From positions 1 through 47,465 of the forward strand of contig JAGGRY010000049.1 of the NCBI GenBank assembly GCA_021159365.1: a stretch of 47,465 nucleotides of DNA, given 5' to 3'. The notes under the pieces were generated by a model. That model was given only the letters and a program-made list of their open reading frames with translations, was not told the DNA's origin and did no database searches. Made by a program: the position numbers and the translations under genes. Shown piece after piece: positions 1,879 to 11,081 of this stretch (within the stretch, counting starts at the first letter, position 1; the number at the start of each line of letters is the position of its first letter). This DNA comes from Nitrososphaerota archaeon (GTDB lineage: Archaea > Thermoproteota > Nitrososphaeria_A > Caldarchaeales > Wolframiiraptoraceae).

Positions 1879-2889
1879 TCAATTACCGCTGAGAATCCTC
1901 GATATAATAGCCTCGGCAAAATCCATTGTTGACGCATTCCCTCCCATGTCAGGGGTTAGAGTCCTTCCTTCATTCAACACGGATTCAATCGATGACTGAA
2001 TCTCCCTTGAGGCGTCTATCATTGATCGATCTTCACGTCTTTTACCGAGCCATTCAAGCATCATGGCCGCTGAGAGGATGGTCGCCGTCGGATTAGCATA
2101 CCTTGGATCTATTGATGGAGCAGCTCCATGAACAGGCTCAAACAATCCATGGTTGTCTCCGATATTTGCAGATGGACAGACTCCGAGAGTTCCTATTATT
2201 CCAGCCGCTTCATCGCTTAAGATATCCCCAAACATATTCGGAGTGAGAATTACGTCGAATCTCATCGGATTCACGATCAGCTGATAAGCGGCGTTATCCA
2301 CATACATATCCTCAACTTTTAGATCAAAGTCTCTTAAAACATTCATACACGATTCCTTGAAGAATTTGAAGGAGTCTAAGATATTCGATTTATGAACTAT
2401 GGTGACGAGCTTCTTCCTTTCAGAAGCCATCTCGCCCGCAATCTTCGCTATTCTTTCACAACCTTTTCTCGTGAATATCATCATCGCGACCGCATAATTA
2501 TCTCCAACATCTTCAATTCCCTTATAGAGATCTTCAGTATTCTCCCTAACTACTACGAAATCCACATCTCTATAGATTTTAGGGGTTATTGGAAGCGATT
2601 TAAACGGCCTGATATTCGCGTAGAGGTCGAGCTCTCTTCTGAGAAAGACTATGACGTCTCTCGCAGTCTCGCCGATAGGTCCCTTAAGACAAGCATCTGA
2701 ATCCCTTATCTTTAAGAAGGAATCTTTCGGCAGAGGCTCACCCTGCTCCTCAGCAATCTTATCGCCGGCCGGAGTCATCACGAAATCCAGTTGGAAACCA
2801 TATTTGTCCGAGATTGCTTCGAGAACTTTTATCGCCGCTGAGATCACGCTTGGCCCGATCCCATCTCCTTGAATTACTGCTATCTTCAT
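1879..2889 (-). CDS. leuB: 3-isopropylmalate dehydrogenase (beta-decarboxylating dehydrogenase family)
   Basis: It oxidises and decarboxylates 3-isopropylmalate with NAD in leucine synthesis. The 336-residue protein opens with 'IAVIQGDGIGP', has the substrate-binding arginines in 'VFLRRELDLYANIRP', the catalytic 'VVRENTEDLYKG' tyrosine segment, a lysine in 'TIVHKSNIL', the metal-binding aspartates in 'NMFGDILSDEAAG', and the C-terminal 'FEPVHGAAPSI' loop. Isocitrate, homoisocitrate and isopropylmalate dehydrogenases share this fold. The divergent placement to leuA favours the leucine enzyme, although a broader substrate range is possible. A TTTAAG element about 25 bp upstream on the - strand suggests a leaderless or very short-leader transcript. 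Confidence 0.88.
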   Translation of the reverse strand: MKIAVIQGDGIGPSVISAAIKVLEAISDKYGFQLDFVMTPAGDKIAEEQGEPLPKDSFLKIRDSDACLKGPIGETARDVIVFLRRELDLYANIRPFKSLPITPKIYRDVDFVVVRENTEDLYKGIEDVGDNYAVAMMIFTRKGCERIAKIAGEMASERKKLVTIVHKSNILDSFKFFKESCMNVLRDFDLKVEDMYVDNAAYQLIVNPMRFDVILTPNMFGDILSDEAAGIIGTLGVCPSANIGDNHGLFEPVHGAAPSIDPRYANPTATILSAAMMLEWLGKRREDRSMIDASREIQSSIESVLNEGRTLTPDMGGNASTMDFAEAIISRILSGN

Positions 2890-2960
2890 CTTCCGTCATC
2901 CAATTCCCTTAGGCTTAAAGTTTTCACCAATTGAATTTAGATTTGCCGGGGTTTAGGAGC

Positions 2961-2976
2961 GGTAAATTAATATATG
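2961..2976 (+). promoter_or_regulatory. Probable BRE/TATA promoter of the leuA-ilv operon
   Basis: The A/T element TTAATATAT (2967-2975) preceded by GGTAAA resembles an archaeal TATA box with its upstream BRE. Using the usual 25-30 bp spacing, transcription would start near 2995-3002, leaving an untranslated leader of about 170 nt before the leuA ATG at 3172. That is long for an archaeal gene. No other element this good lies closer to leuA. Confidence 0.5.
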
Positions 2977-3008
2977 GGGAAAGTAGCTAATTTTCTCAAA
3001 CAGTGGGG

Positions 3009-3050
3009 GTGAGTTTATTGCTCCAAATTCGATGCTCCTCCCGGTTTTAG
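3009..3050 (+). promoter_or_regulatory. Candidate 13-codon leader ORF 1 (three consecutive Leu codons) upstream of leuA
   Basis: Starting from GTG at 3009 the frame reads MSLLLQIRCSSRF and stops at TAG 3048-3050. Codons 3-5 are three different leucine codons in a row (TTA, TTG, CTC), and an isoleucine codon follows. It sits about 10 nt after the predicted transcription start. No separate Shine-Dalgarno site precedes it, so translation would have to be near-leaderless. It may be chance, but together with the second Leu/Ile-rich frame it supports a BCAA-sensing leader. Confidence 0.3.
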
Positions 3051-3160
3051 CTCCTAAGGCGTTCCGCAAGTCGAAAACAGCGAATTTTATCTCATCGATC
3101 TCTCGATGCTCTGTGAAGATTATTCCAGCGCTTGTGCTCCTCATCATTATCATCCTTTAG
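3032..3160 (+). promoter_or_regulatory. Candidate BCAA leader peptide ORF 2 (ends ALVLLIIIIL), stop overlapping the leuA SD
   Basis: From ATG 3032 a 42-codon frame runs to TAG 3158-3160. Its last ten residues are ALVLLIIIIL (codons 3128-3157), so nine of the last ten codons specify leucine, valine or isoleucine, the products of the downstream operon. Shorter versions could begin at GTG 3113 or GTG 3134 (MLLIIIIL). The stop codon lies inside TAGGAGGG, the leuA ribosome-binding site. CTCCT at 3137-3141 can pair with AGGAG at 3159-3163 and hide that site, and a ribosome paused on the Ile codons would cover the 5' half of this stem. No strong SD precedes any of the starts, and the opposite strand is also open here, so coding is unproven. 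Confidence 0.4.
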
Positions 3161-3171
3161 GAGGGATAACC

Positions 3172-4683
3172 ATGACTTGGAAACAATTTTTCTGGGAGGA
3201 CTCTATATCTCTTCCATCGAGGATCAAGATATTAGACACAACTCTAAGGGATGGAGAGCAGACTCCTGGAGTCGCCTTAACCCCGAAGATGAAGCTTGAA
3301 ATCGCGAGAGCCCTCGACGAATTGGGAGTCGACGTAATTGAGGCAGGTTATCCAATAGTCTCAAGCGGCGAGGAGGAAGCGGTTAAAGCAATAGCATCTG
3401 AAGGGCTGAATGCGAAGATCTGTGCGCTCTCAAGAATAGACCGAATGGATATAGATGCAGCGATAAGATGCGGTGTTGACTGGATCCACATATTTGTCGC
3501 AACCTCGGACATACATCTGAAACATAAGCTTAAGATGAGTAGAGAGGAAGTTTTGAGAAAATCCGTGGAGGCCGTGGAGTATGCGAAAGCCCATGGATTA
3601 ACTGTTCAAGTCTCCGCAGAGGATGCGACGAGAACAGATCCAAAATTTTTATCAAAATTCTATAGAGCGGTTGTCGAGGCGGGATCTGATAGCATAGATA
3701 TACCGGACACCGTTGGAGTGATGACTCCTGAAAGATTCTTCAAACTCGTCTCCAAGATCAAGGAAGTCGTTAAAGTTCCAGTAGCCGTTCACTGCCACAA
3801 TGATTTTGGACTTGCAACCGCGAATACGATAGCCGGAGTTCTGGCTGGAGCCGAGATAGTTCATGTAACGGTTAACGGCATTGGTGAGAGAGCTGGAAAC
3901 GCAAGCCTCGAAGAGGTCGCGGCGATCCTAAAGCTCCTATATCATATTCCGATGAACCTCGATTTGAAGAAGATCTTTAAGGTTTCAAGGCTTGTTGAGA
4001 AATATACTGGAATCCAGATTCAGAAGAATAAGGCGATAGTTGGGGACAACGCGTTCACCCATGAAAGTGGAATCCATGTCCATGGAATATTATGTAAGCC
4101 TGAGACCTACGAACCAATCCCGCCCGAATTATTCGGAAGAGAAAGAAGGGTGGTAATCGGAAAACATTCGGGCTCACATGCGATTGCAGAGATCCTGAAG
4201 AAGCATGGATTAACGTTAGCATCAAATGAGATTTCAGAAATCCTCAGAGAGGTTAAGGAGAGGGGAGATAGGGGTGAGGTGATCAGCGAAGATCTCATCG
4301 TAGAGTTAGCCTTAAAGAGAAGGCGGAAAAAGGTCATAGAGCTCAAAGAAATTCTCTTGACATCCTCAATCGATGGATGCGCATGTCTAGTGAGTGTGAA
4401 GTCTAATGGAAGAGAGATCACGACTATATCGTATTCTCGAAGCCCAATGGATGCTGGGGTTAAGGCTCTCGGTAAGTCCCTCAAAGAACTCATAGATGCT
4501 GAGATAGAAGATGTTAGAATCGTAAATAGGAATTTCATCTCAGAAGCTGAAGTAACGTTAAGCTTAGGTGAATCAAGAACTCGTGAATACGCTGCAGATG
4601 AAGATCCAGTTAAGGCGGTGGCCTTAGCCGCCTTGAGCGCCGCTGAAAAACTGCTTAGGAGGGTTGAGATATGTCGAGGGTGA
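3172..4683 (+). CDS. leuA: 2-isopropylmalate synthase (LeuA/CimA/AksA family)
   Basis: It condenses acetyl-CoA with a 2-oxoacid, most likely 2-oxoisovalerate in the first committed step of leucine synthesis. I use ATG 3172, which has a strong GGAGGG site 6 nt upstream; an in-frame ATG at 3106 lies inside the leader. The 503-residue protein has the TIM-barrel catalytic domain with 'LDTTLRDGEQTPG' (D22, R26, D27), metal-binding 'HCHNDFGLA' (H207, H209) and 'NGIGERAGN' (235-243). A C-terminal LeuA dimer/regulatory domain from about residue 380 is where leucine feedback acts in the family. Citramalate and homocitrate synthases look alike; the operon favours isopropylmalate synthase. It overlaps ilvB by 13 bp. 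Confidence 0.9.
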   Translation: MTWKQFFWEDSISLPSRIKILDTTLRDGEQTPGVALTPKMKLEIARALDELGVDVIEAGYPIVSSGEEEAVKAIASEGLNAKICALSRIDRMDIDAAIRCGVDWIHIFVATSDIHLKHKLKMSREEVLRKSVEAVEYAKAHGLTVQVSAEDATRTDPKFLSKFYRAVVEAGSDSIDIPDTVGVMTPERFFKLVSKIKEVVKVPVAVHCHNDFGLATANTIAGVLAGAEIVHVTVNGIGERAGNASLEEVAAILKLLYHIPMNLDLKKIFKVSRLVEKYTGIQIQKNKAIVGDNAFTHESGIHVHGILCKPETYEPIPPELFGRERRVVIGKHSGSHAIAEILKKHGLTLASNEISEILREVKERGDRGEVISEDLIVELALKRRRKKVIELKEILLTSSIDGCACLVSVKSNGREITTISYSRSPMDAGVKALGKSLKELIDAEIEDVRIVNRNFISEAEVTLSLGESRTREYAADEDPVKAVALAALSAAEKLLRRVEICRG

Positions 4684-6365
4684 TTGGGGCTGAGATAGCG
4701 GTCAAGACTCTAGAGTCTGAAGGAGTTGAAGTGATCTTCGGAATACCTGGAGGGGCTATGCTCCCATTCTACGATAAACTCTACGACTCTAATATTAGAC
4801 GGGTTCTAGCTAGACATGAACAATCGGCTGCGCATATGGCTGATGGATATGCGAGGATAAGTGGAAGACCTGGAATCTGCGTAGTGACCTCTGGTCCAGG
4901 CGCCACAAATACTATCACGGGAATAGCGAATGCGTATATGGATTCATCGCCGATGATCGTGATCACTGGACAGGTTCCGGTGGATTTGATGGGTAAAGGA
5001 GCATTCCAAGAGGTGGATATGGTGGGGATGGCTACACACATAACCAAGTGGGCTACAATCATAGATAGAGTTGAGAAAGTTGAAGAAACCATAAGAAGAG
5101 CGTTAAAGATCTCCATGAACGCCAGACCTGGCCCAGTCCTAATAGATTTTCCAAAAGATGTTCAAACAGCGCTTCATGAATACAAGGCTGAGAAAGCCGT
5201 GAAGATTCCGATTAAATCTCCACAAAATCCAAAACCTGAGCAGATCTACGAAGCCGTTAAGATTCTCTTAAACTCCGAGAGGCCGGTTATCCTAGCTGGA
5301 GGAGGGATCAGATGGGCTAAGGCATATAGAGAGTTGATGGAAGTCGCTGAGATGCTCCAAGCTCCAGTCGCTACAACCTTGATGGGAAAAGGATCATTCC
5401 CAGAAGTCCATCCGCTCTCTCTAGGATGCGTAGGAATGCATGGAAATCCTGAAGCTTATGAAGTGATTCAAGAGGCTGATGCTTTGCTCGTCGTCGGCGC
5501 AAGGTTCTCAGATAGGACTACGTCTAAGCTCGATGAATTTGCACGCGATGCAAAGATAATTCACATAGATGTAGATCCAGCTGAGATCGGGAAGCTCAAA
5601 AAACCCATGATAGGAATCGTTTCATCCGCCGATAAAGCTCTGAAAAAGATCCTTGAAGGAATAAGGATCGCCGCCGAAAAGATTCATAGAAGTGAATGGT
5701 TGAGAAAGGTGAAGGAGATCAAGGAGATTTGGCGTGAAAGAATTAAGAGATCAGGAATTCTATCATCGAGGGTCGTGGAAATCTTTAAGGCAATGCGAGA
5801 AGCCTTGCCACCTAACACGATAATCACCACAGAAGTTGGACAGAATCAAATGTGGGCACAATTATTCTGGAAAGTTATTGAGCCTGGAACATTCATCAGT
5901 TCAGGAGGTCTCGGAACCATGGGATTCGGATTTCCGGCTGCGATAGGTGCAAAGGTTGCGAAGCCGAGTTCTCCCGTTGTCGATGTGGCGGGAGATGGAA
6001 GCTTCATGATGGTCGAGAATAATCTTGGAGTAATCTCCAAGGAGAATATTGCCGTGATAGTGGTGATCTTGGATAATAGGGTGCTCGGAATGGTCGCTCA
6101 ATGGCAAAGACTATTCTATAATCGAAGATATTCTTCGACAGATCTCGGTGAATTTCCAGACTTCGTCAAGCTCGCTGAAGCATATGGAGTTGAAGGAGTT
6201 AGAACGGATGATCCGGAAGAGCTTAAATCGATCTTGAGAAGAGCTGTTAGAGCAGATCAACCGATCATCATAGATGTTCCAATATCGAGGGAGGAGGATG
6301 TTCTACCATTCATCCCGCCTGGGAGGAGCTTTAGGGAGGTAATCTTGTCAAGGAGGTATGAATAA
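4671..6365 (+). CDS. ilvB: Acetolactate synthase large (catalytic) subunit
   Basis: A thiamine-diphosphate enzyme that condenses two pyruvates to acetolactate, or pyruvate with 2-oxobutyrate, for valine/leucine and isoleucine synthesis. Its 564 residues match the family. An N-terminal Pyr domain carries the cofactor-activating glutamate E50 in 'RHEQSAAHMADGYAR'. A central FAD-binding domain contains 'VGARFSDRTT'. A C-terminal PP domain carries the ThDP/Mg motif 'VAGDGSFMMVENNLG'. The start overlaps the end of leuA and the stop overlaps the next ATG, which indicates translational coupling with the small subunit. Confidence 0.95.
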   Translation: MSRVIGAEIAVKTLESEGVEVIFGIPGGAMLPFYDKLYDSNIRRVLARHEQSAAHMADGYARISGRPGICVVTSGPGATNTITGIANAYMDSSPMIVITGQVPVDLMGKGAFQEVDMVGMATHITKWATIIDRVEKVEETIRRALKISMNARPGPVLIDFPKDVQTALHEYKAEKAVKIPIKSPQNPKPEQIYEAVKILLNSERPVILAGGGIRWAKAYRELMEVAEMLQAPVATTLMGKGSFPEVHPLSLGCVGMHGNPEAYEVIQEADALLVVGARFSDRTTSKLDEFARDAKIIHIDVDPAEIGKLKKPMIGIVSSADKALKKILEGIRIAAEKIHRSEWLRKVKEIKEIWRERIKRSGILSSRVVEIFKAMREALPPNTIITTEVGQNQMWAQLFWKVIEPGTFISSGGLGTMGFGFPAAIGAKVAKPSSPVVDVAGDGSFMMVENNLGVISKENIAVIVVILDNRVLGMVAQWQRLFYNRRYSSTDLGEFPDFVKLAEAYGVEGVRTDDPEELKSILRRAVRADQPIIIDVPISREEDVLPFIPPGRSFREVILSRRYE

Positions 6366-6669
6366 GTTGAAGAGAAAATATTTGGTTTTAGTTGAAGCCT
6401 ACTTCCAACCCAATATCCTTGAAAAGCTCGTCGGATTTCTAAGGAGGAGAAACTACGAGTATAGGAGATTGACTTTCACGAAGATCGGCGATGAACATGC
6501 GGTAATCATATTTGAGGTCTCATGTAACGACTATGAGCTTGAACAATTAATGAAGAATTACCAAGGCTTCCCTGAGGTGATTAAGGTGGAGTTTTGTAAA
6601 ACTTTAGAGGATGTAAGTGTATTAGAATTGAGCAAGGAGGTGGTGCGCCTTAGCAAGAATATACTATGA
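6358..6669 (+). CDS. ilvN: Short ACT-domain protein, probable acetolactate synthase small subunit
   Basis: A 103-residue protein that starts inside the last codons of ilvB. The pattern '[24 protein letters not shown]' followed by two beta strands and a helix fits a single ACT domain, the valine-binding regulatory fold of acetolactate synthase small subunits. It lacks the C-terminal domain of typical 160-residue IlvH proteins and is closer in size to E. coli IlvM/IlvN. The usual 'N.PGVLARI' motif is eroded, so the assignment rests on size, fold pattern and position. Its 3' end overlaps the proposed start of ilvC. Confidence 0.7.
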
Positions 6670-7639
6670 TGATGACATAGATATGAGTCCGCTGAGAGAC
6701 AAGACTGTCGCAGTCATTGGATATGGAAACCAGGGTAGAGCTCAGGCATTGAATATGAGGGATTCTGGAGTCGATGTGATCGTGGGGGTGCGAGTTGGAG
6801 GCAAGTCATGGAAGATAGCCGAGGAAGACGGATTTAAGCCGATGAGCATAGAAGAGGCTTCGAGGAAGGCAGATATAATTCACATTCTAATACCTGACAC
6901 TGTTCAGCCGATGGTTTACGAGGAGAAGATAAAGCCTGAATTAAGAGAGGGAAAGACCCTTGGATTCTCACACGGATACAATATCCACTTCAAGCTCATA
7001 AAGCCTCCAAGCTGGGTCGACGTGATTCTCATAGCTCCAAAATCTCCTGGAAAGAGAATGCGGGAAGTATACCTTAGTGGAGGCGGAGTTCCAGCGCTTG
7101 TCGCCGTCGGTCAAGATTATAGCGGTGAGGCCATGAAGAAAGCTCTAGCAATGGCCAAGGCGATCGGGTGTTCGAGGGCTGGTGTGATAGAGACGACTTT
7201 CGCAGAGGAAACCGAGACAGATCTCTTCGGAGAACAAGCGGTTCTCGTCGGAGGAGTCATGGAGTTGATAAAGAAGGGATTCGAGGTCCTAGTGGAGGCA
7301 GGATATCAACCCGAGGTATCATACTTCGAGGTATGTAATGAGCTGAAGCTCATAGTCGACTTAATCCAAAGAGGAGGATTCTCTGAGATGCTTGAAGCCA
7401 TATCGGAGACCGCAAAATACGGTGGATTAACTGTTGGGCCAAAGATTATAGATGAATCGGTTAAGGAGAAGATGAAGGAGGTTTTGCAGAGAATTCGAAG
7501 TGGAGAATTCGAAAAGGACTGGACTGGAAATCCGAATGCGGGAAAACTGCTTAAAGAAAAACTTGAAGAGATTAGAAGACATCCGATAGAGAGCGTTGGC
7601 GAGAGAATTAGGAAGTTAATGAAGCTCGGAGAAGGATGA
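6650..7639 (+). CDS. ilvC: Ketol-acid reductoisomerase, class I; start codon uncertain (TTA 6650 or ATG 6683)
   Basis: It isomerises and reduces acetolactate to 2,3-dihydroxyisovalerate using NAD(P)H and Mg. The Rossmann motif '[21 protein letters not shown]', the '[10 protein letters not shown]' segment, the metal-binding '[16 protein letters not shown]' and the later E..E region are all present. The first ATG (6683) would drop conserved N-terminal residues: the upstream frame reads [10 protein letters not shown], which is where family members begin (MAKIYY-DID). No ATG, GTG or TTG occurs between the in-frame stop at 6629 and 6683. The codon in the expected place is TTA at 6650, 9 nt after GGAGG. 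From there the protein has 329 residues, the normal length. From ATG 6683 it would have 318. Confidence 0.85.
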
Positions 7640-7642
7640 TTC

Positions 7643-8908
7643 ATGGGGATGACTATAACCGAGAAAATACTTGCAAGAGCCTCGAACAAGGAGAGGGTTG
7701 ACCCCGGCGAGATAATCATCGCGAGAGTTGACAAGGTAATGATACATGATGTCTCAGGTCCTCCAGCCCTAAAGATCCTCGAAGATCTAGGAGTTGAGAA
7801 AGTCTTTGATCCAAGTAGAGTTTGGGTGACAGAAGACCATTTCGTCCCGCCGCCTGATACGAAATCCGCCAAAAACTTGATCGAACTCAGGAGGCTCGCC
7901 GCGAAATATGGTTTAAGAAAATATTATCGATGGGGTGTAGGCCAATATGGAGTATGCCATGCATTATGTTTCGAAGAGGCGTTGGTTGCTCCCGGAGAGG
8001 TGTTCATCGGAGGAGACTCGCACACGAATACCGCAGGAGGGATAGGATCTTTCGCGGCTGGAATGGGACACACTGACATCGCTTTCATCTTAAAGAATGG
8101 ATGGACTTGGCTAAGAGTTCCAGAAACTCTCCTATTCAAGATTAATGGAAAATTAAGAGAGCACGTTATGGCGAAGGATCTAGCCCTACATATAATCGGT
8201 GAAATAGGGGCTTCTGGAGCAAGCTATAAGGCCATGGAGTTTAAGGGTGAGGGAATTAAGAATATGAATCTTGAAGAGAGGTTAACTCTATGTAATATGA
8301 CGACTGAAGCCGGAGCGAAGAATGGGATAATAGAACCTGACGAGAAGACAATTCAATACTTCAAGGAAAGAGGCGTTGAATTCAAGCCAGTATGTAGTGA
8401 TGAGGATGCGGAATATCTAGAGGAATTCAGTGTAGATGCATCGAAGGTCGAGCCTATGGTCGCCAAGCCAGTATCTCCCGCAAACTCTTCTCCAGTCTCC
8501 GAAGATGAAGGTCTCGAAATCGATAGAGTTTATATCGGCTCATGCACAGGTGGAAAGTTATTTGACTTGAGGATGGCCGCGAGGATTATGAAAAACAGAA
8601 GGGTGAAGATTAGAACGGAGATAGCTCCAGCAACACAATCAATCTATCTAAAGGCGTTAAATGAGGGCTTGATTGAGATCTTCGCTAAAGCTGGAGCAAT
8701 AATCCTTCCGCCAACATGTGGAGCTTGCTTCGGAGGCCATATGGGAGTTTTGGGCGAAGGTGAGATTTGCGTCTCAACGACGAATAGAAACTTTCCCGGG
8801 AGAATGGGGCATAGAAGTTCAAAAGTATATCTGGTTTCTCCATTGACGGCCGCTGCATCGGCGATTACCGGAAGATTAACTAATCCAAGGGAGTTTCTTC
8901 ATGGGTGA
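7643..8908 (+). CDS. leuC: 3-isopropylmalate dehydratase large subunit
   Basis: With LeuD it isomerises 2-isopropylmalate to 3-isopropylmalate. The 421-residue archaeal-type LeuC belongs to the aconitase superfamily. The three [4Fe-4S] cysteines are visible as C301 in 'GSCTGG', and C359 and C362 in 'PPTCGACFGGHMG'. 'GGDSHTNTAGGIG' and 'NRNFPGRMG' are also typical. Homoaconitase is nearly indistinguishable by sequence, but the surrounding leu/ilv genes point to leucine. It begins 3 bp after the ilvC stop; an internal ATG two codons later is an alternative start. Confidence 0.92.
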   Translation: MGMTITEKILARASNKERVDPGEIIIARVDKVMIHDVSGPPALKILEDLGVEKVFDPSRVWVTEDHFVPPPDTKSAKNLIELRRLAAKYGLRKYYRWGVGQYGVCHALCFEEALVAPGEVFIGGDSHTNTAGGIGSFAAGMGHTDIAFILKNGWTWLRVPETLLFKINGKLREHVMAKDLALHIIGEIGASGASYKAMEFKGEGIKNMNLEERLTLCNMTTEAGAKNGIIEPDEKTIQYFKERGVEFKPVCSDEDAEYLEEFSVDASKVEPMVAKPVSPANSSPVSEDEGLEIDRVYIGSCTGGKLFDLRMAARIMKNRRVKIRTEIAPATQSIYLKALNEGLIEIFAKAGAIILPPTCGACFGGHMGVLGEGEICVSTTNRNFPGRMGHRSSKVYLVSPLTAAASAITGRLTNPREFLHG

Positions 8909-9414
8909 GAGTCTTGATGAAGGTGTTTAGGGGTAGAGTTCACAAGTTTGGAGACGATATAGACACCGACGTGATAATTCCAGGAAAATATCTGAAGGAG
9001 TTTGATCCAAAAGAGCTCGCGAAACATGCAATGGAAGGAGTTGATCCAGAATTCCCGAGAAAAGTTGGGGTTGGAGATTTCATCTTGGCTGGAGAGAATT
9101 TTGGATGCGGCTCAAGCAGAGAACATGCTCCGATGGCACTACACGCCGCGGGGATAAGAATAGTTCTCGCGAAGTCATTTGCTCGAATCTTTTATAGAAA
9201 TTCGATTAATGGAGCATATCTTCTTCCAATAGAGATAGATGATGACATTTATAACTCGATAAGCGATGGAGATGAAGTCGAACTCGATTTAAACAAGATG
9301 ACATTAAGAAATCTCACAAGCGGCGGAGAATTCGCATTAAAGGAGATTCCTGAAATAGTTGTGGAGATATTTGAAGCCGGAGGAATTCTGAAATGGAAGC
9401 CGAAAAAGCTTTGA
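8905..9414 (+). CDS. leuD: 3-isopropylmalate dehydratase small subunit
   Basis: This swivelling domain partners LeuC. Key motifs are '[17 protein letters not shown]' at the N terminus and '[14 protein letters not shown]', which carries the active-site serine/arginine loop. The first possible start is GTG 8905, overlapping the leuC stop by 4 bp. The ATG at 8917 gives '[18 protein letters not shown]', which matches the usual family beginning better. It overlaps ilvD by 22 bp, so leuC, leuD and ilvD are probably translationally coupled. Confidence 0.9.
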
Positions 9415-11081
9415 GACATAGGAGCAGGAAGATAGTTGAGGGAGTTGAAAGGGCTCCGCATAGAAGTCTCCTAAGAGCTGTGGGGCTTTCGGACGAGGAC
9501 TTCACAAAACCCCTAATAGGGTTGGCGAATTCATGGAATGAGATCGTTCCAGGCCACATCCATCTAAGAGATGTTTCAGCAAGAGTTAAGGAAGGTGTTA
9601 GAGAAGCTGGAGGAGTTCCGCTGGAATTTAACACGATAGCTGTCTGTGATGGAATAGCTATGGGTCATGAGGGCATGAGATACTCGCTTGTGAGCAGGGA
9701 AATTATCGCGGACTCCATTGAAATAATGGCCATGGCTCATGGGTTTGACGCGCTTGTCTTATTATCGAGCTGTGATAAGATAGAGCCTGGAATGATCATG
9801 GCCTCCGCCAGATTAAATATACCATCAATATTCGTGAACGGAGGCCCCATGCTCGCCGGAAGAATCGGAGATAAGAGATGCGGAGTCGGAGACGTATTCG
9901 AGGCCATTGGAAAATATTCTTCAGGAGAGATAACTCTTCAAGAACTCAGGGAAATAGAGCTTAAGGCATGTCCTGGACCCGGATCATGCTCAGGTCTTTA
10001 CACGGCGAACACCATGGCCATATTGATTGAAGCTCTTGGCCTCTCCTTACCTGGAAGCTCGACCGCGCCCGCAGTAAGCTCTGAGAGACTGATCCATGCT
10101 AAGAATGCTGGAAGGATTATCTTGAATGCTCTTGAAAATGGCTTGAAGCCTAGGGATATCCTGACGTTTGAGGCATTTGAAAATGCGATAGCGGTTGACT
10201 CAGCCATAGGTGGATCGACGAACGCTGTTCTCCACTTACTCGCAATAGCTCATGAAGCCGGAGTAAAGTTAACTTTAGATGAATTTGAGAAGATAAGTTC
10301 TAGGACTCCTCACATAGCTGACCTCGCTCCAGGGGGCAAATACTTCGTTGAAGATCTCCATAGGGTTGGCGGAGTCCCCCTTATCATGAAGTATCTAATG
10401 AAGCATGGGTTGATAAATGGAGATGCATTGACGATCAATGGAAAGACCGTTAAGGAGAATTTGAACGAGTTTAAGCCTAAGTCGAACGGGCAAGATGTTG
10501 TTAGAGATCCATCAAATCCGATACATGAGAGAGGCGCGATAGTGGTATTGAAAGGAAACCTCGCTCCAGAGGGAGCTGTGGTAAAGCTCGCGGGAGTTAA
10601 ACAATTTAAACACATTGGAAGAGCGAAAATATTCGATTCCGAGGAAGAGGCGTTTAAAGCTGTGATAAATAATCAAATCGAGGATGGAGACGTTCTAGTC
10701 GTCAGATATGAGGGGCCTAGAGGAGGGCCGGGAATGAGGGAGATGCTCTCAATAACAGCCGCGATAGTTGGGAAAGGAATAGGTGAAAAAGTCGCCATGA
10801 TAACCGATGGAAGATTCTCCGGCGCAACAAGAGGATTGATGGTCGGACACATTTCACCCGAAGCCGCGGTTGGAGGGCCGATAGCCGTTGTCAAGAATGG
10901 AGATATTATCGGAATAGATGTTAAGGAAAGGAAGATCTGGGTCGATTTACCTGATTCCGAGCTTGAGAAGAGGCTTAGGGAATGGAAGCCCAAGAAAAAG
11001 CATCTAACAGGAGTCTTAGCCAGATATGCTAAGCTATTCTCCTCGGCCTCGATTGGAGCAATTTCACGTCCACCAGTTTGA
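9393..11081 (+). CDS. ilvD: Dihydroxy-acid dehydratase
   Basis: It dehydrates 2,3-dihydroxy acids to the 2-oxoacid precursors of valine and isoleucine, using an Fe-S cluster and Mg. The protein has 562 residues. Visible cluster and metal motifs are 'CDKIEPGM' (C127) and '[16 protein letters not shown]' (C193-C199). Where [2Fe-2S]-type enzymes have PCNxHL, this protein has PGHIHL (53-58), as in E. coli IlvD, which suggests the oxygen-sensitive [4Fe-4S] subtype. It is the last gene of the leuA-ilvBN-ilvC-leuCD-ilvD run. After it there are 81 bp with a short T run (11095-11101) before the end of the convergent SDR gene. Confidence 0.93.

Follow-up and report, generated by a model that had tools for sequence, protein, structure and literature searches.

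A conserved two-frame leader with a Leu/Ile/Val codon run before the leuA-ilv operon of Caldarchaeales resembles a bacterial-style amino-acid supply sensor

Amino-acid leader peptides are a textbook form of bacterial control, and a short reading frame that ends in leucine, valine and isoleucine codons directly before an archaeal leuA gene raises the question of whether an archaeon may sense the supply of these amino acids in a comparable manner. The window analysed here, a stretch of 47,465 nt from a member of the Caldarchaeales, archaea of hot springs, is contig 7 in a 1.25-Mb draft genome of 89% completeness. An earlier note on this DNA had proposed that one or two leader peptides, together with a stop codon overlapping the leuA Shine-Dalgarno sequence, control the operon; all of its coordinates were correct when the sequence was read directly, and its interpretation of the leader is partly supported by the comparison with relatives described below.

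The leuA-ilv locus and the layout of its leader

The leuA gene for 2-isopropylmalate synthase (3172–4683, + strand) was recognized by an NCBIfam match above cut-off (NF002085) and by alignments with relatives, in which its start MTW is the counterpart of MAW or MSW; a LeuA start further upstream, at ATG 3106, was rejected, the extension being interrupted by stops in most relatives. It is followed by ilvB, a short ilvN-like ORF, ilvC, leuC, leuD and ilvD (4671–11081, + strand), which by NCBIfam assignment gives the operon under the leader the content of the branched-chain pathway. The ilvN-like ORF encodes 103 aa between ilvB and ilvC (6358–6669), has no NCBIfam match at 1e-20 and is possibly a minimal acetolactate synthase regulatory subunit. 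On the other side of the leader, a divergent leuB-like dehydrogenase gene (1879–2889, − strand; NCBIfam TIGR02088/TIGR00169 below cut-off) has its start 282 nt from the leuA ATG, and a seryl-tRNA synthetase gene of the rare methanogen type (serS_MJ; 292–1830, − strand; below the curated cut-off) adjoins the leu operon.

The leader transcript exhibits a TATA box, TTAATATA (2967–2974, + strand), which starts 51 nt 5' of the TTG codon of a first short frame, uORF1. This codon lies in a conserved 5' block, GGTGAGTTTATTGCTC (3008–3023, + strand), made up of the uORF1 Shine-Dalgarno sequence GGTG (3008–3011) and a TATTGCTY core, and uORF1 itself (3018–3050, + strand) reads TTG CTC CAA ATT CGA TGC TCC TCC CGG TTT TAG, with 10 codons. 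The earlier note had described the same ORF with an earlier start (3009–3050; GTG AGT TTA TTG CTC CAA ATT ... TAG), and the three adjacent Leu codons and one Ile codon seen there are present; the comparison confirms a separately conserved uORF with its own Shine-Dalgarno sequence and places the start at the conserved TTG 3018 and not at GTG 3009, because the latter is part of the GGTG. A second frame, ORF2 or frame 0 (3017–3160, + strand), lies in the −1 phase relative to uORF1 and ends at TAG 3158–3160. Its portion from ATG 3032 is the 42-codon ORF 2 (3032–3160) of the earlier note, correctly described as ending in ALVLLIIIIL. The terminal part of ORF2 is the Leu/Val/Ile codon run LVLLIIIIL (3131–3157, + strand), and the stop is contained in TAGGAGGG (3158–3165, + strand), where it overlaps the leuA Shine-Dalgarno sequence. 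ORF2 has no Shine-Dalgarno sequence of its own in the window. A candidate local hairpin of GGGGGTGAG (3005–3013) with CTCCTCCC (3035–3042), spanning 3005–3042 on the + strand, would close the uORF1 Shine-Dalgarno sequence and is not significant in this genome.

Comparison across the Caldarchaeales

The sequence upstream of leuA was extracted from relatives, and the leader was observed in 33 of the 44 genomes of the order Caldarchaeales (which in the collection used has the same members as its class), representing 12 genera and three families. It occurs where leuA heads a leuA-ilvB operon and is absent where leuA follows leuB; ilvB stands directly after leuA in the leader-bearing loci with downstream sequence and does not do so in the leaderless leuB-leuA loci, which on inspection were those of genus g2, of family f3 and of the other-class genomes G051 and G058. 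The features shared among the leaders are informative because LeuA identity between relatives is only about 50–55% and most of the leader is no longer alignable between genera. No leuA orthologue was found in the genome G001 of the window's own genus (best match E 5e-37; genome 80% complete), and therefore there is no within-genus comparison for that genus.

In its strict form the 5' block is present as a single copy in each of 10 of the 44 genomes, every time before leuA, with looser forms in the remaining leaders, while among 354 other phylum members it gave 19 matches, none of them near leuA or its operon partners. The best TATA match starts 44–52 nt (median 51) before the TTG or GTG in 32 of the 33 leaders, L028 being the exception. 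All 33 leaders contain a uORF1 of 5–10 codons. Outside genus g4 its layout is a GGTG-type Shine-Dalgarno sequence, about 6 nt and then TATTGCTY, read as TTG CTY, which places the Leu codon CTY at codon 2. In genus g4 (L015, L016, L018, L020, L023, L027), the 5' block is GGTGAGCAAAGTGARCCAACTCGAWTAR and a nearly invariant pentapeptide, GTG-Ser/Asn-Gln-Leu-Glu/Asp-stop, takes the place of uORF1; therefore the start and the position of the Leu codon, here CTC as codon 4, have changed, and the second frame is still in the −1 phase in five of these six loci. Genus g6 has MLG[A/G][M/V/I/L][N/T]-stop, with changes mainly at third positions. Coding-type substitutions in the TTG frame inside uORF1 are suggestive, with small numbers, and not significant in a second test.

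The ORF2 frame ends in mostly Leu/Ile/Val codons and a stop that overlaps the leuA Shine-Dalgarno sequence in 8 of the 11 scored genera, with a Leu/Ile/Val fraction of 0.41–0.93 over the last eight codons against 0.21 further inside the frame. Counted back from the stop, these residues make up 93% at position 3, 90% at position 2 and 14–31% beyond position 8, and the last six codons hold a mean of 4.2 of them, where the other two frames hold 0.3 and 1.3 (29 leaders, g8 excluded). The codons of the run are mixed, CTT/CTC accounting for 92 of the 148 Leu/Ile/Val codons (62%), and owing to this dominance part of the run signal could be a pyrimidine tract; in the window and in L116 the run is rich in ATC, ATT, GTA and TTG. 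Weak runs were observed in L018, L031, L013 and L014, that of L018 being short and located in another frame. The loci of genus g8 (L010, L022, L024, L026), which we take to be the Caldarchaeum group, have kept uORF1 and have no Leu/Ile run; their frame 0 ends 11 nt inside leuA, overlaps its start by about 14 nt and is Val-rich in three of the four. Most leaders exhibit the overlap of the ORF2 stop with the leuA Shine-Dalgarno sequence, in forms such as CTY-TAG-GTG, CTC-TGA-GGTG, CTC-TAA-GGTG and similar, and in most of them 9–16 nt separate the ORF2 stop from the leuA start. The run and the overlap are thus kept in relatives while the intervening DNA has diverged beyond alignment, as the earlier note had predicted for a genuine leader. 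Judged by this comparison of sequences, the leader is conserved in both of its frames and their phase, in the run, in the promoter spacing and in its link to the operon.

Reading of the second frame and pairing of the RNA

Between the start block and its own stop, the ORF2 frame is uninterrupted in all 33 leaders, as compared with 0 and 5 of the 33 for the other forward frames, and the −1 phase of ORF2 relative to uORF1 is constant across the leaders. The antisense strand, whose openness had been raised as a caution against the proposal, does not exhibit conservation of a frame in its place, the reverse frames being open in only 6, 13 and 7 of the 33. The genus-by-genus shuffle probabilities multiply to about 10^-7.2 for the openness and phase of ORF2 (11 genera) and to about 10^-6.4 for the termination of uORF1 within 10 codons, figures that overstate the certainty because the tests were post hoc, chosen after the data had been seen, and because the genera share ancestry and are not fully independent. 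On the 3' side of the uORF1 stop, an excess of synonymous substitutions was observed in the ORF2 frame only (fraction 0.386 against a null of 0.291, z 3.2) among seven within-genus pairs, of which those of unequal length were aligned by protein, a procedure favouring frame 0; the equal-length pairs alone display the same tendency in frame 0. Between L005 and L006 an in-frame ATT (Ile) codon was gained or lost inside the run, and most of their other differences are synonymous. Four lines, namely the openness and phase, the enrichment of the run, the synonymous excess and the in-frame Ile codon, all point to translation of frame 0.

How ribosomes would enter this frame is less evident from the leaders. 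ATG 3032, which had been proposed as the start of ORF2, is unconserved, and about half of the leaders contain no ATG, GTG or TTG in that frame (L007, L009, L012, L016, L023, L028 and most of g6, for example), so that translation of ORF2 needs an unproven step. A recognisable start and a ribosome-binding site are both found in uORF1; the run-bearing ORF2 has no conserved start. Possible routes of entry are a −1 shift from uORF1, reinitiation at a 4-nt overlap, or an AUU start, and none of them fits every genus: genus g4 has AGUG in place of the AUUG that would contain an AUU start, no slippery heptamer for −1 slippage was seen in the leaders checked by eye, and a start codon overlaps the uORF1 stop in L017 (ATG) and L031 (TTG), whereas the other leaders have ATA, TTA, CTA or GTA at that place.

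In genera g3, g6, g9, g10 and g12, the region of the uORF1 Shine-Dalgarno sequence pairs with the stretch that immediately precedes the run, with arms that differ in sequence, such as GGCGTGGTGGGA/TCCCGCCACGC (L007), AAGTCTGAGG/CCTCAGACTT (L006), CACGAGGG/CCCTCGTG (L014) and GCGAAGGG/CCCTTCGC (L029, L115, L118). In these genera the two arms of one leader pair better with each other than with arms taken from another genus (permutation p ~0.01), and the same arm-swap test found no such advantage in g1 (the window's genus), g5, g11 and g13; a stem between the uORF1 Shine-Dalgarno sequence and the pre-run segment is partly supported in this way, in about half of the genera. Across genera, neither the run nor the segment before it paired with the leuA Shine-Dalgarno sequence or leuA codons better than expected by chance, and therefore no conserved sequestering hairpin was found. 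The CTCCT that had been proposed to pair with the AGGAG of this site is present at 3137–3141, but the pairing is not conserved; as a conserved switch, neither the CTCCT:AGGAG stem nor a hairpin of the run with leuA codons has cross-genus support (mean z −0.21), and the RNA of 2998–3200 folds with ordinary energy (z 0.09). No intrinsic-terminator-like site was found in 2850–3300, and the Rfam covariance models for T-boxes, leader motifs and riboswitches gave no match to the leader.

Possible mechanism, rival readings and related systems

We consider it rather probable that the leader of the leuA-ilv mRNA is a translated regulatory leader sensing charged Leu/Ile/Val tRNA, and its conserved features give it the look of a bacterial-type sensor for the supply of these three amino acids. 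Ribosomes would load at the uORF1 Shine-Dalgarno sequence, some 20 nt behind the 5' end, and would meet a leucine codon at once. In replete cells, most of them would complete the 5–10 codons of uORF1 and then leave, the 5' Shine-Dalgarno sequence being able to re-close through pairing with the stretch immediately ahead of the run, and some would go on in the −1 frame of ORF2 and arrive at the run beside the leuA start. Under a shortage of Leu, Ile or Val, a ribosome would be slowed as it enters the run, some 8 codons (24 nt) ahead of the stop, where it would cover the pairing segment, so that the 5' site would stay open, and would leave just enough space for another subunit to bind at the leuA Shine-Dalgarno sequence, with the outcome that the operon would be translated more. 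That the slowed ribosome would cover the one segment and leave the other site free follows a footprint argument from bacterial numbers, and the entry into ORF2, the stalling and the direction of regulation are steps that we infer. A more specific version is offered tentatively, in which the leader would be a two-stage translational attenuator: leucine supply at the uORF1 Leu codon would set the passage into the −1 frame, and the speed over the run would decide leuA initiation.

It is fairly unlikely that uORF1 alone is regulatory, with a stall at its Leu codon gating the leader and the pyrimidine-rich CTTCTTCTC ahead of the leuA site acting as an RNA- or ribosome-binding element that reads as Leu by accident. 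uORF1 is indeed the most widely conserved part of the leader, being present in g8 without the run, and the share of CTT/CTC among the run codons and the lack of a canonical ORF2 start in about half of the leaders would suit this reading; the ATC/ATT/GTA/TTG-rich runs of the window and L116, however, as well as the constant phase, openness and synonymous excess of ORF2, speak against it. Plain translational coupling, in which ORF2 would bring ribosomes to a stop 9–16 nt before leuA with no amino-acid sensing and the hydrophobic codons would have another cause, appears unlikely. Termination-reinitiation exists in archaea, and the stop overlaps the leuA Shine-Dalgarno sequence in most leaders; in Haloferax, however, gaps of 13–14 nt already cut reinitiation to about 40–60% and a gap of about 22 nt abolishes it (PMC10666635), which weakens pure coupling, and Leu/Ile/Val codons before a Leu/Ile/Val operon would be left unexplained. 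Very improbable is a metabolite-binding RNA or protein-bound operator behind the conserved block, with both ORFs incidental: TATTGCTY is conserved at the nucleotide level beyond codon need, but the lack of an Rfam match, the ordinary folding energy, the divergence of the mid-leader beyond alignment and the strong frame signals are all against it. A chance hydrophobic ORF within an intergenic gap, with which the window alone would be compatible in view of the missing ORF2 Shine-Dalgarno sequence and the ordinary folding, is opposed by all the comparative results and, as an origin of the leader as a whole, is already refuted by them.

The leader can be compared with several known systems. In the erm and cat translational attenuators, the leader ORF is located directly upstream of the regulated Shine-Dalgarno sequence and a drug is the signal. 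The position of the leader ORF is the same here and the stall site could decide access, whereas no conserved hairpin was found to cover the leuA Shine-Dalgarno sequence and the signal would be an amino acid. The bacterial ilvL, ivbL and leuL attenuators and the actinobacterial leuA leaders (PMC1262725) likewise have a short ORF, rich in codons for the product amino acids, between promoter and operon; the present leader differs from the ilvL/leuL type in its archaeal promoter, in its two overlapping ORFs in −1 phase, in a run that forms the extreme end of its ORF, the stop falling on the Shine-Dalgarno sequence, and in that no terminator hairpin was found. Archaeal termination-reinitiation (PMC6728339, PMC10666635) is similar in that an upstream stop lies within reach of the next start and the frames are offset by −1, as in the common 4-nt overlap, but the 9–16 nt of the leader are outside the efficient range and few leaders have a start codon that overlaps the uORF1 stop. 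A full-text search, with most subscription papers outside its scope, found no archaeal leader-peptide attenuator, which does not prove absence; PMC10219788 names archaea where it speaks of uORFs in general.

Upstream of leuA in Lokiarchaeota, a leader ORF of about 28–41 codons with a Leu-rich terminal run, mostly ATG-started, was observed in nearly every locus whose upstream sequence was long enough (L083, L100, L098, L084, L091 and about 17 others within L066–L103), ending 114–160 nt 5' of leuA. It is exemplified by MLQ...LLLNLLLLLL, its run has mixed Leu codons, MKMLQNIKDHYEISNLRHVLSLGLLLNLLLLL being one example, and it carries CTTCAA near the start, TTGAAG or TTGAGG before the run and, after it, inverted repeats whose stem-loop potential was seen by eye; these features suggest a leucine attenuator of Asgard archaea, and no description of it was found in the literature searched. 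Both leaders end in a Leu-containing run before leuA and have a start region that can pair with the pre-run segment, whereas that of Lokiarchaeota is a single, mostly ATG-started ORF, more distant from leuA and followed by stem-loop potential. Further Leu/Ile/Val-run matches in Methanococcoides (L079) and Methanophagales (L056) were discarded, as they are not kept in neighbours.

The poly-Leu leader of Lokiarchaeota is seemingly separate from that of the Caldarchaeales, which belong to the Thermoproteota, and the unexplained relation between the two frames of the latter could expose an archaeal mechanism of recoding or reinitiation. Were the two-stage attenuator true, it would sense amino acids through a regulated frame switch that needs no second start codon, and archaea would have their first described case of leader-peptide control. 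If the leader does act as a supply sensor, archaea too would read amino-acid supply from the speed of ribosomes on their mRNAs.
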